Shown here: positions 1,742 to 64,000 of the stretch, piece by piece
Layout: each line of letters opens with the position of its first letter
Numbering within the stretch: the stretch's first letter is position 1
Source: Isoetes taiwanensis
Taxonomy: Eukaryota; Streptophyta; Lycopodiopsida; Isoetales; Isoetaceae
Assembly: GCA_021234155.1 (NCBI GenBank)
Contig: JAJEKV010000062.1
Coordinates: forward strand, 4,960,497-5,024,496
Length of the DNA stretch: 64,000 nt
Direction: 5' to 3'
The notes under the pieces: generated by a model
Databases searched by the model: none
The model's input: the letters and a program-made list of their open reading frames with translations, nothing else
What the model was told of the DNA's origin: nothing
Translations under genes and position numbers: made by a program

Positions 1742-2500
1742 GATGAAGCCTTGCCATCAAAAGTAGCAAATTCGCTTCCCATGGCGACTATGTTTCTTTG
1801 ATTGGAGTTATATTTGCAAGATCAAAATGCAAGATCGGGCAAGAGCTAAGAACCGCAGATTATTGAATATAAATTAAATTAGCAATTTGGTATATGCTAA
1901 AGTGTGACATGCTTTATATTTACCTTTACATGTTCACAACATCATCATATAGGAAATAATGTGTCCTTAAAAAGTTGATAATGCTTTTTTGAATATATAA
2001 TTATCGCGGCATCCATGGTCGGGAACCATGGGATTGCGGCTCATCTAGTTGACCTAGTAACTGAAACAAACATGAATTTTTGTAAATGAGATAATTCTAT
2101 AGAACTAATATAGAAACGTGACAGCAAAAATACATACAAATATGTGTATATTCATTATGCAATCCATACTTATTCATAACATAAACTAAGCTTCTCTCCT
2201 CCTCGACCTTGGGTGAGGTAGATGCAACATCCAAATGTATAACTTAGAAGAAAACAAATGACTGCATAATGCTCATGGGTTATTCACCTACAACAATGGT
2301 CAATTCGAGATATAATCCGTAATAAAAATAGAGAAAGTGCAAGTACGAATGGGCATTTATAATGTAGTGTGTGTGCAATGTAGAGAGAGAAATAACAGTG
2401 GAAATCGACCTGAAAATGCCGCAACATGAGTGCATGTAGAAAGAGAAATAACAGAAACGTGATCTGAAAATTAAATCCATTGAAGCATAGCAAATTTTGT
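870..2500 (+). repeat. Direct duplication of a block of about 0.65 kb
   Basis: Block 870-1,560 is repeated at 1,885-2,500 with the same order of landmarks: a stretch around 'gcatccatggtc', then 'cataaactaagcttctctc', then 'ttgggtgaggta', then 'acatgagtgcatgtagaaa'. The copies differ by substitutions and small indels. The second copy is mirrored in the right arm at about 63,230-63,800. No coding potential is seen. Confidence 0.75.
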
Positions 2501-4450
2501 ACTTGCATACCCCACAAACGGTGAACTTATGTACTGCATTAAGGAATAAGGTGAATATATGTCTATCCAACAAATTACAACCGAGTCACCCCGTGAATAT
2601 GCACCCAAACCAAAGGGGGTTTAAGGGGATTTAATTTAAAACGTGGTTTAATCTAACGCCAGGTTAATTAACGCTAATGGTAGTTATGTGTTGTTGTTAA
2701 CACAATGGTTGTTATAAAAGTTGGGGGATTTAATTTTTATATGTTGGATGTTAAATGGTTTGTGTTGCAAAATTTTGGCCTTTCTGAGTTTTAGACGCCC
2801 CCTCGTGTGACAAAATTTTGAATTCAAACTTAAAACCTAATTCATTTGAGGCTTTCATCACCGTAGCTTTTGAATTTGATCACACAAAACAAATAGAACA
2901 TAAGTAAAAGTTACCATAAAGATAGAGTAGATTGATTCCATTATTCTGAAAGTATAAAGTTCGCAACACCCATACACAAACATTTTCAATCGAATTTAAC
3001 AAAGCAGCCTTTGGCCTCCATGGATTCTCGGGGTGGTGAGAAACCAAAGTGGAAACTTTCTACTTGTTAGCACAAGGATCTAGAAGCCTGAATTTGCTTT
3101 AATAACCGCCTAAAAATCTAAATGTATGGTAATTTTTGTAAGCTTCATCTTGGAATAAGCTATAAAACAATATCCACAGTAACTTGACACCGTACCGTAG
3201 GATGTGAAAGCCTACCAAACTCCGGTCAAAAATTGGGTTGTTTTAAGATAACTTAACCAAACATATCCATATCATAATAATTATCAAAAGATCTCTTGAC
3301 AGATCTTTCCAACGCAATACAAATCATCTCAAACAGAGCTCCGGATCAAAAGTTGATAAGAAATGTGTTGCCAGGAAATCAGACCATGCCTTCAAGCCCT
3401 TCATGCCCATTACGACCATACACACAAAAGAGGGCTTTGTTGTGAGCCATTGGTTGTTGACCATTTAAAAAAGGCTAAAATCAGGTATTCTTCATGTGCC
3501 CATTATGCACCACACGTGACAAAAAAAGGGCTTTGTTGTGAGCCATTGGTTGTTGACTATTGAAAAAAAGGCTAAATCAATGGCTCGTAAATGGTGCAAC
3601 TTTAGAAGTTATTTATTAGTACATTCAATACATCACGTAAATCATAGGAAAACCTGAAGAAAAGCGATAAAAACACAAAAGAAACCCCTCGTTATTATGT
3701 TGGTTATTCAATTCCAAGACCGCAGTAAAAGATGGAATGATTAAGGGATTAACATGTTCCATAGTTAAATTTGATGCTCAACAAAATAGAAATGTTGAAA
3801 ATAAATGCAAATGTATCATGCATTCAAGAAGAAGTACAATGATTTAGCCAAGCACAAAATCGAAAACGCTTTTTTAAAGACCCCAAGGTAAGATTCATCG
3901 CTCAGCAGTAATCACAATAAACATAGTTCAAAACAAAAAATTAGTTCAACATGTGCAATCATGGCCTCGCTTTGAATAACCTGAGATGTCTGGGTAGTGC
4001 CTTCATAGTTGCAGTTCCACTCATGGCTTCATGGTTTAAAAAGGACATAGCATTTGAGCATGAAAACTCCAACACCATGCACCCTTACAAGTTTTTCCTT
4101 CGATTCAAACTTTGAATCATGATCCGAATTCATTTCGACCAGTTTTCTTCCAGCTTGAAAAACCAATGGAAAACCTCAAGAGATTAGATGAAAGGAGAGC
4201 AAAAGGCCTAATTTTGCTGTGGTGGGAAAATTTTGAGGCAACCAAAGGAAAAAAGGGATATGAAATAACAATATGTATAGAACATGGCAATATGTATAGG
4301 AAATAAAGCCTACAATAACCAAGAACAAAAGAACTCAAAATCATGTCTCAGTAAAACAACCAATAATTTAGATATCATCTCTCGAGAAAGGAAGAATTAA
4401 AATTATATTTGCAAACAAACTCGAGTATCCGGAGGATAATGTGAATAAGA
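2501..4450. other. Non-coding DNA with a tandemly doubled ~95-base segment
   Basis: No gene recognised. At 3,397-3,483 and 3,484-3,588 the same segment occurs twice (shared core 'gggctttgttgtgagccatt'). The mirror pair is at 62,069-62,265. Short frames here are not supported by composition or by the mirror copy. Confidence 0.6.
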
Positions 4451-4551
4451 GTTGTTGTTGTTGTTGTTGTTGTTGTTGTTGTTGTTGTTGTTGTTGTTGT
4501 TGTTGTTGTTGTTGTTGTTGTTGTCATTGCTTGTTGTTGTTGTTGTTGTTT
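4451..4551. repeat. (GTT)n microsatellite, left copy
   Basis: Run of GTT, interrupted once near 4,525-4,530. It is the mirror of the AAC run at 61,062-61,170, which is uninterrupted and longer. The cysteine-rich frame over it is only translated repeat. Confidence 0.9.
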
Positions 4552-61061: not shown

Positions 61062-61170
61062 AAACAACAACAACAACAACAACAACAACAACAACAACAA
61101 CAACAACAACAACAACAACAACAACAACAACAACAACAACAACAACAACAACAACAACAACAACAACAAC
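61062..61170. repeat. (AAC)n microsatellite
   Basis: About 36 uninterrupted AAC units. Polyglutamine, polythreonine and polycysteine frames through it are repeat translation. Confidence 0.95.
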
Positions 61171-64000
61171 TCTTATTCACATTATCCTCCAGATATCGAG
61201 TTTGTTTTGCAAATATAATTTTGAATTCTTTCGCTTTCTCAGAGATGATATCTAGGTATTGGATTTGTTTTGCAGACATGATTTTGAGTTCTTTTGATTT
61301 CTTGGTTATTGTGAGCTTTGTTATTTCTATACATGTTGCCATGTTCTATACATATTGTTATTTCATATCCCTTTTTTCCACTGGATTTGCCTCAAAATTT
61401 TCCCACCCTGTAAATTAGGCCTTTTGCTCTCCTTTTCATCTAATCTACTGAGGGTTTTCCCATTGGTTTTTCCAACTGGAAGAAGGCTTTGGTCGAAATA
61501 GACCCAGATCATGATTCAAAAGTTTGAATCTGAAGGGAAAAAACTTGGCAAAAAATTGCATGGTGTTGGAGTTTTCATGCTCAAATGCTATGTCCTTTTT
61601 TTTTAAACCATGAAGCCATGAGTGGAACTACAACTATGAAGAAGGCTTTTTGCAGACATCTCCAGGTTATTCAAAGCAGGCCACTGATTGCACATGTTGA
61701 ACTAATTTTTTGTTTGAACTATGTTTTATTGTAGTTCTGCTTTGAACAATGAATCTTGCCTTGAGGTCTTTAAAAAACGTTTTCGATTTTGTCATGGCTA
61801 AATCATTATTTACTTCTACTTCTTGAATGCATACATTACATTTGCATTTATTTTTCAGCATTTCTATTTTGTTGAGCATCAAATTTAACTATGGAACATG
61901 TTAATCCCTTAATCATTTCCATCTTTTGCAGATGCCGTTGAATATGTAGCATAATAACAGGGGGTTTTCTTTGTGTTTTTGTACGCTTTTCACTAAGGTT
62001 TTCCTATGATTTCGTGATGTATTCAAATGGATGTACTAATGCGTACTTCTAGGGTGCACCATTTCTGAGCCATTGATTTTAGCCTTTTTTTTCAATGGTC
62101 AACAACCAATGGCTCACAACAAAAGCCCTTTTTTTGTGCGTGTGGTGCATAATGGGCACATGAAGGGCCATTGATTTTAGCCTTTTTTTAAATGGTCAAC
62201 AACCAATGGCTCACAACAAAAGCCCTCTTTTTGTGTGTATGGTGCATAATGGGCACATGAAGGGCTTGAAGGGCGCATGTAGTGCAGTTTCCCCGCTGGC
62301 AACACATTTCTTATCACAACTTTTGATCCGGAGCTCTGTTTGAGATGATTTGTATTGCGTTGGAAAGATCTATCCGAGATCTTTTTGATAGTGTATGATA
62401 TGGATATGTTTGGTTAAGTTATCTATGCTAAAACAGCAATTTTTCGGCCGGGTTTGGTAGGCTTTCACATCCTACCAGCTGATTAATACAGGATTGCGCT
62501 ATTGGATATTGTTTTATAGCTTATTCCGAATGAAGCTTGCAAAAAATTACCATGCATTTTTAGATTTTGAAGCAGTTATTAAGCAAATTCCAAGGCTTCT
62601 AGATCCTTGTGCTAACAAGTAGAAAAGTTTCCCACTTTGGTTTCTCACCACAAGAATCCATGGAGGCCAAAGGCTGCTGTTAAATTCCAGTTGAAAAATG
62701 TTTGTGTATGGGTGTTGCAAACTTTATACTTTCAGAATAATGGGATCAATCTACTCTATCTTTATGGTAACTTTTACTTATGTTCTATTTGTTTTATTGT
62801 GATCAAATTCAAAAGCTACAGGTGATGAAAGCCTCAAATGAATTCTGGTTTTTTTCTGGTTTGAATTCTAAAATTTTTGTCACACCCTGGGACGTCCCTA
62901 AGGTCTCAAGGGGCCAAAAATTTTTTTTTGCAACACAAACCATTAACATCCAACATATAAAAATTAAATCCCCCAACACATAACAACCATTGACATTAAC
63001 AACCAACACATAACTACCATTGACATTAATTAACACAAGCATTGGGTCCAACACATTTAAATTAAAATCCCCCTTAAACCCCCTTTGGTTTGGGTGCATA
63101 TTCACACGGGGGTGACTCCGGGCAACGAGAGCTGTTGGATAGACATATTCACCCCTTATTCCTTAATCTACACCGTACATAAAGTTCCTCGTTTGTGGGG
63201 TATGCAAGTACAAAATTTGCTATGCTTCAATGGATTTAATTTTCAGATCACGTTTCCTGTTATTTCTCTTTCTACATGCACTCATGTTGCAGCATTTTCA
63301 GGTCAGTTTCCCTGTTATTTCTCTCTCTACATGCACACACACTACATTATAAATGCCCCATTCATTACTTGCACTTTCTCTATTTTTTATTGCGGATTAT
63401 ATCTCGAATTCAGCCATTGTTGTAGGTGAATAACCTTCGCAGGCATTGTACAGTCATTTGTTTATTTTCTTCTAAGTTATCTGTTTGGATGTTGCATCCT
63501 ACCTCACCCAAGGTCCCAGAGGAGAGAGAAGCTTAGTTTATGTTATGAATAAGTATGGATTGCATAATGAATATACACATATTTGTATGTATTTTTTGCT
63601 GTCACGAATTTCTATATTAGTTCTATAGAATTATCTCATTTTACCAAAAATTCATGTTTGTTTCCAGATTCACTAGGTCAACTAGATGAAGCACAAAGTT
63701 CCCATGGTTCCCCCAGCCATGGATGCACCGCATTAATTATATGTTCAAAAAGCATTGTCAACTTTTTAAGGACACATTATTTCCTATATGATGTTGTGAA
63801 CATGTAAAAGGTAAATATAAAAACTGTGTCACACTTTAGCATATGCAAATTGCTAGCTGGACTGCCTTCAATAATCTGCAGTTTCTTAGCTCTTGCCCGA
63901 TCTTGCATTTGATCTTGCAAATATAACTCCCAATCAAGAAAACATGATCTGCCATGGGGCGAATTTGCTCTGCTTTTGATGGCAAAGGCTTCATCTGCAG
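61171..64000. other. Non-coding DNA, outer end of right arm
   Basis: No gene recognised. It contains the ~99-base tandem pair at 62,069-62,265, a small fragment of the 430-base repeat family near 61,940-61,970, and at 63,230-63,800 the mirror of one copy of the left-arm direct duplication. Confidence 0.5.
62069..62265. repeat. Tandem pair of a ~99-base segment
   Basis: Two nearly identical copies (62,069-62,167 and 62,168-62,265) sharing 'caatggctcacaacaaaagc'. Mirrored at 3,397-3,588. Confidence 0.85.

Follow-up and report, generated by a model that had tools for sequence, protein, structure and literature searches.

The 64,000-nucleotide stretch of the Isoetes taiwanensis assembly analysed here (the window) has the form of one giant palindrome, which raises the question of whether such a structure exists in the plant or was produced by sequencing and assembly. 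The pattern of change between the two arms strongly suggests the latter: the window is very probably an assembly artefact, derived from a nanopore fold-back read that was built into the plant contig.

Arms and fold

The comparison of the window with its own reverse strand by BLAST, complemented by a more sensitive search, revealed a single collinear inverted pair made of a left arm (positions 1740 to 31084) and a right arm (31171 to 63997), with 86 nucleotides between them. The arms are 29,345 and 32,827 bp long and collinear down to the loop, in agreement with the preliminary description, which took the whole window as one palindrome with arms of 29 and 33 kb and the left one about 3.5 kb shorter. 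The start of the left arm at around 1740 is fixed by the right edge of the window, and the arm may extend past the window. BLAST gave three long collinear blocks, pairing 1740-8569 with 63997-56979 (86.9% identity), 8602-14852 with 56728-50154 (82.3%), and 14947-22842 with 49687-41435 (82.0%). An ordinary spacer of 18.6 kb at the center, suggested by the first BLAST search, was ruled out by the more sensitive one, which returned eight further matches inward of the three blocks, all of them on the same descending diagonal and reaching the apex (innermost match, 31038-31084 with 31217-31171, 89%).

The noise of the left arm has two levels, separated by an abrupt step at about position 22,830: gapped identity falls from 82% outside this position to 58% (0.576) inside it. 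The outer part (1740 to 22830, plus strand) is probably an inverted second reading of 63997-41440, from which it differs in about 18% of the aligned columns (19,132 matches and 1,205 mismatches). The inner part (22831 to 31084, plus strand), judging from the eight collinear matches, would be a very noisy second reading of 41440-31171. Its GC content is raised to about 48 to 58%, its homopolymers are depleted, and the CpG depletion of the right inner arm (observed/expected ratio of 0.55 to 0.61) is lost on the left (1.10). In a control using 800-bp pieces of the inner arm, placed by proportion and not registered, 7 of 7 pieces scored above the best of five shuffles each, but only 5 of the 7 were above the shuffled mean in identity (0.466 to 0.603 versus 0.449 to 0.483). 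Collinearity across the inner 8 to 10 kb is weak but real.

One-sided change between the arms

The arms have not diverged by ordinary mutation, and nearly all the change is on the left arm. A tandem array of units of about 433 bp in the right arm (44220 to 47531, plus strand; left counterpart at about 17015 to 20199) was used as an internal control. Among its five full units, identity was 91.5% between right units, 83.6% between left and right units at the same place, 77.6% between left and right units at different places, and 71.2% between left units, and every one of the five left units was closest to the right unit at its own place. Branch lengths calculated by hand from the unit means were about 0.15 for the left and 0.01 for the right. 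For five further repeat pairs, the right copies were more similar to each other than the left ones in all five by gapped identity and in four by ungapped identity (the exception being a 53-bp pair), and each of the 10 left copies most resembled the right copy in the corresponding position. The halves of a nested palindrome are 92% alike in the right arm (53452 to 54429) and 63% alike in its left counterpart (10788 to 11694). Given this one-sidedness and the open cytochrome b561 stretches described below, the right arm (31171 to 63997, minus strand) is likely to be the real genomic sequence.

The earlier proposal that neither arm has an insertion of its own is correct for the left arm, where the largest private run is 11 bp. 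It fails for the right arm, which has two blocks largely missing from the left: one of about 218 bp at 56,725 to 56,990, which overlaps one of the b561 coding stretches, and one of about 370 bp at 49,581 to 50,191, within a 114-bp tandem array.

Strand bias and loss of bases

Substitutions, taken from right to left, differed strongly between strands. T>C exceeded A>G both in the outer part (320 of 6,479 [4.9%] versus 75 of 6,341 [1.2%]; P = 1.6e−34) and in the inner part (465 of 2,249 [20.7%] versus 89 of 1,930 [4.6%]; P = 2.5e−52). In the outer part, four of the six complementary substitution pairs differed at P < 0.001 and T>G/A>C at P = 0.0096; T>A/A>T showed no significant strand difference (P = 0.061). 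Right-arm paralogues, used as a control, were balanced (87 C/T and 92 A/G), against 82 and 14 for left-right comparisons at the same places.

Bases were preferentially lost on the left arm, by about 2 to 2.5:1 in events and 3 to 4:1 in bases. The outer part showed 969 gaps missing in the left (2,214 bases) versus 488 missing in the right (754 bases), and the inner part showed 969 losses versus 387 gains; most of the outer losses (792 of 969) concerned one or two bases. When 62 right-arm homopolymers of five bases with matching flanks were considered, 31 were shorter on the left and 3 were longer.

Regarding sequence context in the outer part, C>T was elevated neither at CpG (28 of 380) nor at CHG (33 of 482), the value at CHH being 214 of 3,017, and G>A was higher at CHG (30 of 429) than at CHH (54 of 2,879) and slightly up at CpG (9 of 330). 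The G>A excess at CHG looks like methylation-linked change. With no matching rise of C>T at CHG, this excess is one-stranded, and a miscalled methylated cytosine on the read strand fits it better.

Coding stretches and the loop

Frames are broken on the left arm only. The right arm carries stretches of a cytochrome b561 (56853 to 58292, minus strand) that are open, from stop to stop, at 58292-57942, 57545-57204, and 57200-56853. The Pfam search covered the last two, which match PF03188 (E = 1e−20 and 1.2e−13, respectively), and the first is assigned as an open reading only. The nearest solved structure is 4o6y, and the best named relative, among the best 120 of 715 matches, belongs to Diphasiastrum complanatum (52% over 89%). 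In the left counterpart (7278 to 8605, plus strand), the frame is broken throughout: 43 of the 46 left-arm indels in the coding stretches are not a multiple of three, and the left-arm substitutions comprise 8 silent and 15 altering ones. Against the same 120 relatives, the mean summed bits were 227.6 for the right locus and 65.7 for the left.

A Ty3/gypsy fossil lies in the right arm (34028 to 36235, plus strand) as three separate open stretches, at 34028-34405 (RNase H-like), 35166-35645 (integrase, below the Pfam cut-off), and 35867-36235 (chromodomain). Two stops fall between 34880 and 35166. The left counterpart of the fossil (at about 26915 to 28697) gave no match reaching 24 bits. The right arm may itself be imperfect close to the fold, since the gypsy integrase pieces that it contains there, within about 0.7 kb, shift from frame to frame.

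The unpaired loop (31085 to 31170) reads by eye like part of a gypsy integrase. No search confirmed this resemblance, and a DNA alignment of the loop region with the second gypsy copy scored 35, the maximum of 100 shuffles being 41. A remaining adapter in the loop was unsupported as well: two nanopore adapter sequences gave no match above background on either strand, their four scores being equalled or beaten by 198, 354, 394, and 675 of 1,000 background windows.

Origin of the palindrome

A fold-back read very probably produced the window, in the following way. The sequenced strand, running leftward in window coordinates, would have crossed the real locus to give the right arm, reversed near 31.1 kb, and been read a second time as its own complement, giving the left arm. 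This second pass would have been badly basecalled, missing many bases and confusing A with G on the read strand, and would have been retained by the assembler as contig sequence and left uncorrected. That the left arm was read second, in a right-to-left read, is suggested by the T/C excess on the plus strand, which corresponds to A/G on the minus strand, and by the degraded second half. As expected of nanopore fold-backs, the first segment is followed, after a turn of less than 200 bp, by its own reverse complement, the second half is shorter, with missed bases and miscalls, and the A/G confusion lies on the read strand with the degraded arm second. The reads are probably nanopore reads, the fold probably lay in one or a few of them, and it is likely to have arisen during library preparation. 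Priming at a 9-base inverted repeat is one conceivable trigger of the fold. In nanopore reads, A/G substitutions are about 3 to 5 times as frequent as transversions, and C/T are only slightly raised (PMC8486125); fold-back reads represent around 0.55 to 0.6% of nanopore genomic reads (Heinz, Meyerson and Li 2026, PMC12870357); and, for true inverted duplicates of yeast, the half read second was reported to be shorter, with missed and wrong bases (Spealman et al. 2020, PMC7229812). A fold-back long read had already been put forward as the simpler explanation, from the absence of arm-specific transposons. Our support for it comes instead from direct tests of the change, which is one-sided, strand-lopsided, deletion-heavy, and frame-breaking, together with this published behaviour.

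Some results go against a fold-back read. A single one predicts one poor stretch, and the step at about 22,830 gives two levels of noise; the account therefore also needs partial polishing or some change along the read. At about 218 and 370 bp, the right-only blocks are rather long to be gaps in basecalling. The methylation-like G>A excess at CHG and the frame shifts of the right arm close to the fold also count on this side. Nor does degradation always follow the turn, since the eight fold-back reads whose raw signal is described by Heinz et al. showed no notable difference near the breakpoint (PMC12870357).

Among the alternatives, a true recent palindrome, with nearly identical arms of about 30 kb or more around the 86-nucleotide loop and a left arm only badly read by nanopore, is very unlikely, as is the turn that it would make inside what appears by eye to be a gypsy integrase. 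Fold-back duplication in vivo would likewise give a small loop. Yet, in a palindrome with good coverage, reads entering from the left should give a good left arm and a poor right arm, so that both sides would be polished, and the change observed is almost wholly on the left. The poor reading of second halves was published on real inverted duplicates (PMC7229812), which favours this alternative, and the caution of the preliminary description that a giant palindrome might be true still stands. Even less probable is a PacBio continuous long read in which a missed adapter joined template and complement. Such a read also yields a short-looped fold in which one arm stays uncorrected, but its errors are rich in insertions, with few substitutions and no strand lopsidedness expected, whereas here the left arm loses bases and the substitutions are strongly lopsided.

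That the palindrome is natural and old, its arms having drifted apart through mutation, has a practically negligible probability. The 82 to 87% identity of the outer arms would suit an old duplication, and G>A is raised at CHG sites. Nevertheless, similar rates would be expected in both arms and one carries nearly all the change; T>C is fourfold over A>G, although the paralogues within the right arm show no such bias; in the outer part, C>T is not in excess at either CpG or CHG; conserved coding stretches are full of frame-breaking indels; and right-arm array paralogues are closer to each other than to their arm-to-arm partners. This origin was rejected on the array-unit test, the strand bias, and the frame breaks.

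Implications and comparison with known systems

Under the fold-back reading, the giant palindrome is most likely not a real feature and should be discarded as biology. Genes and repeats of the left arm (1740 to 31084) have the appearance of duplicates full of errors, and counting them would exaggerate the numbers of genes, pseudogenes, and repeats. Three read-free tests distinguish a fold-back artefact from an old palindrome: within-arm paralogues as an outgroup, strand balance, and frame breaks in one arm. The direction of the A/G confusion also reveals which arm was read second.

The window resembles the palindromic reads that follow whole-genome amplification (Pacasus, PMC6218980), which are artificial and restrict what long reads can be used for, although those were made by amplification and nothing here indicates an amplified sample. 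As in the nanopore fold-back artefacts of PMC12870357, the second half is on the opposite strand of the first and the turn is within 200 bp. The 86 nucleotides of the loop compare with artefacts of which typically less than half have more than 11 bp between segments, and, unlike those reads, whose turn is expected near the read midpoint, the palindrome lies within an assembled window. Unlike in the yeast study (PMC7229812), the worst part here comes to a sudden end about 8.3 kb to the left of the fold, the remainder being less bad, but the left arm is like the second halves described there in being shorter, with missed and miscalled bases from the junction on.

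Pairing and sequence loss

Paired with its own reverse complement, the window folds from 1740/63997 inward to 31084/31171 around a loop of 86 nt. This confirms the preliminary description of the window as one palindrome, and its arm lengths (29 and 33 kb) and their 3.5-kb difference were also correct. The left limit, ~1740, is merely the partner position of the window's right end. A direct duplication near the left end (941-1549 and 1986-2488) also matches R63222-63754 and explains the partial match of 1-1739 to the right arm. The outer part of the left arm aligned with its partner in three long BLAST blocks (L1740-22842; 82 to 87% identity), while inside L22,830, in the inner part nearer the fold, the pairing falls to ~53 to 63% per kb, gaps counted. 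The overall gapped identities were 0.821 and 0.576, respectively. All eight matches found in the inner part by a sensitive search lay on a single descending diagonal, and seven of seven 800-bp control pieces scored above the best of 5 shuffles each. Placement of these pieces was proportional, and only five of the seven had an identity above the shuffled mean, so the inner identity figures contain chance matches.

Gaps mostly corresponded to loss on the left (outer part, 969 events versus 488; inner part, 969 versus 387), and the majority of the left-loss gaps were of 1 or 2 bases. Homopolymers were shortened in the left arm; in its inner part, runs of at least four bases were rarer than composition predicts (9.1 versus 12.8 per kb). 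The longest left-only run was 11 bp, and two blocks, of ~218 and ~370 bp, were present only on the right. About six copies of a 114-bp unit form a tandem array at 49690-50360 of the right arm, and ~370 bp of it is absent on the left. CpG depletion is gone from the inner left arm (observed/expected ratio of 1.10, versus 0.55 to 0.61 in the right inner arm), where GC is ~48 to 58%.

Strand bias of substitutions

Under double-stranded inheritance, complementary substitution pairs are expected to be about equally frequent. We counted substitutions from right to left, in left-arm orientation. T>C reached 4.94% versus 1.18% for A>G in the outer part and 20.68% versus 4.61% in the inner part, and outer C>T reached 7.09% versus 2.56% for G>A. 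At P < 0.001, four of the six complementary pairs were unbalanced in the outer part, as were three in the inner part; T>A/A>T showed no difference in either. As a control, the units of a ~433-bp array on the right arm differed among themselves about equally by C/T (87) and A/G (92), while left-right differences at the same unit places were 82 and 14.

Outer C>T showed no excess at CpG (28/380 [7.4%]) or CHG (33/482 [6.8%]) over CHH (214/3,017 [7.1%]). Outer G>A was more frequent at CHG (30/429) than at CHH (54/2,879), with 9/330 at CpG. The inner counts for CpG, CHG, and CHH were 5/209, 17/226, and 67/1,272 for C>T and 8/190, 11/212, and 33/1,237 for G>A. Since deamination is expected on both strands, the one-stranded CHG excess of G>A would be better fitted by miscalling of methylated C in the strand that was read. 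Among outer contexts occurring at least 60 times, the most often substituted were CTG to CCG (44/177), GTC to GCC (29/180), and CAG to CGG (32/199). For the first and last of these, and for the raised CHG G>A in 1740-22830, one-stranded misreading of plant CHG methylation is a possible cause.

Polarity of change between the arms

The ~433-bp array recurs in the same order on the left arm, implying that its units predate the doubling, and the right units should thus differ from each other at least as much as arm partners do. They were far closer than that. The comparison covered the five right units of full length and the left unit corresponding to each, leaving aside partial units. Gapped identity was highest among right units (91.5%; 10 pairs), followed by own-place partners across the arms (83.6%; 5 pairs), units at different places across the arms (77.6%; 20 pairs), and left units among themselves (71.2%; 10 pairs). 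The nearest right unit was the own-place unit for all five left units. The distances (0.164 between arms at the same place, 0.224 at other places, and 0.085 within the right arm) gave, by hand, branch lengths of ~0.15 for the left and ~0.01 for the right.

Five other repeat pairs, three of them short, were also more alike on the right: in 5/5 by gapped identity and in 4/5 by ungapped identity, the exception being a 53-bp pair. Gapped identity was 0.921 on the right versus 0.629 on the left for a nested palindrome, and 0.959 versus 0.569 for the inner direct repeats. The own-place right copy was nearest for all 10 left copies. Long open frames on both strands overlap the nested palindrome (53452-54429), whose halves of ~484 bp are 92% alike; a Pfam search of two of these frames gave no match. 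The direct repeats (39057-39349 and 40351-40638; ~290 bp, 96% alike, 1 kb apart) could be the termini of a small LTR element.

Coding stretches

The right arm has two stretches with matches to cytochrome b561 (PF03188; E = 1e−20 and 1.2e−13; closest solved structure, 4o6y) and, upstream of them, a third that is open. Of the 46 indels in their left-arm counterparts, 43 were not multiples of three, and 8 of 23 substitutions were silent, the stretches being defined stop to stop and including some flanking intron. Against 120 of the 715 b561 relatives found, the mean summed bits were 227.6 for the right locus and 65.7 for the left one.

The right-arm Ty3/gypsy fossil retains a long one-frame match with two stops (34863-35561) and open integrase (below Pfam's cut-off), RNase H-like, and chromodomain stretches. 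Among 120 listed integrase relatives of the 152 found, none matched the left counterpart (L27449-28026) at 24 bits or more, and the inner left arm gave one weak match (L30779-30729; 25.4 bits). Beside the fold, the right arm carries ~690 bp of weak integrase pieces in two frames (31171-31864; 22 to 25 bits). These shifting frames may result from natural decay or from a poorer consensus, and the right arm is perhaps less accurate there.

Origin of the palindrome

The change lies almost entirely on the left arm and is strand-lopsided, loss-heavy, and frame-breaking, which supports the preliminary suggestion of a fold-back read built into the assembly. In nanopore reads, A/G substitutions are about 3 to 5 times as frequent as transversions, with C/T raised only slightly (PMC8486125). 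The T/C excess on the left-arm plus strand is A/G on the minus strand, indicating that this arm was read from right to left and hence as the second pass, after the turn. Some observations fit this account less well. Left-arm noise and GC change sharply at L22,830/R41,440, ~8.3 kb from the fold, with lower noise outward and thus two error regimes within one arm, a step that might come from the outer part of the left arm having been partially polished. The two right-only blocks are large for basecalling gaps, and the frame-shifting integrase pieces lie in the right arm. We assign a low probability to a genuine palindrome with a left arm read from one side only. Until reads indicate otherwise, we recommend treating the palindrome as an assembly artefact and disregarding the left arm in annotation.

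The loop showed no adapter-like sequence above background in a comparison with two nanopore adapter sequences. According to Heinz et al. (PMC12870357), fold-back reads make up ~0.55 to 0.6% of nanopore genomic reads and library preparation is their likeliest source; the eight reads that they examined showed no notable signal change near the breakpoint, so reads do not always deteriorate past the turn. Spealman et al. (PMC7229812) report that reading past an inverted-duplicate junction is too fast, giving wrong or missed bases and a shorter output, as likewise seen in the left arm here.
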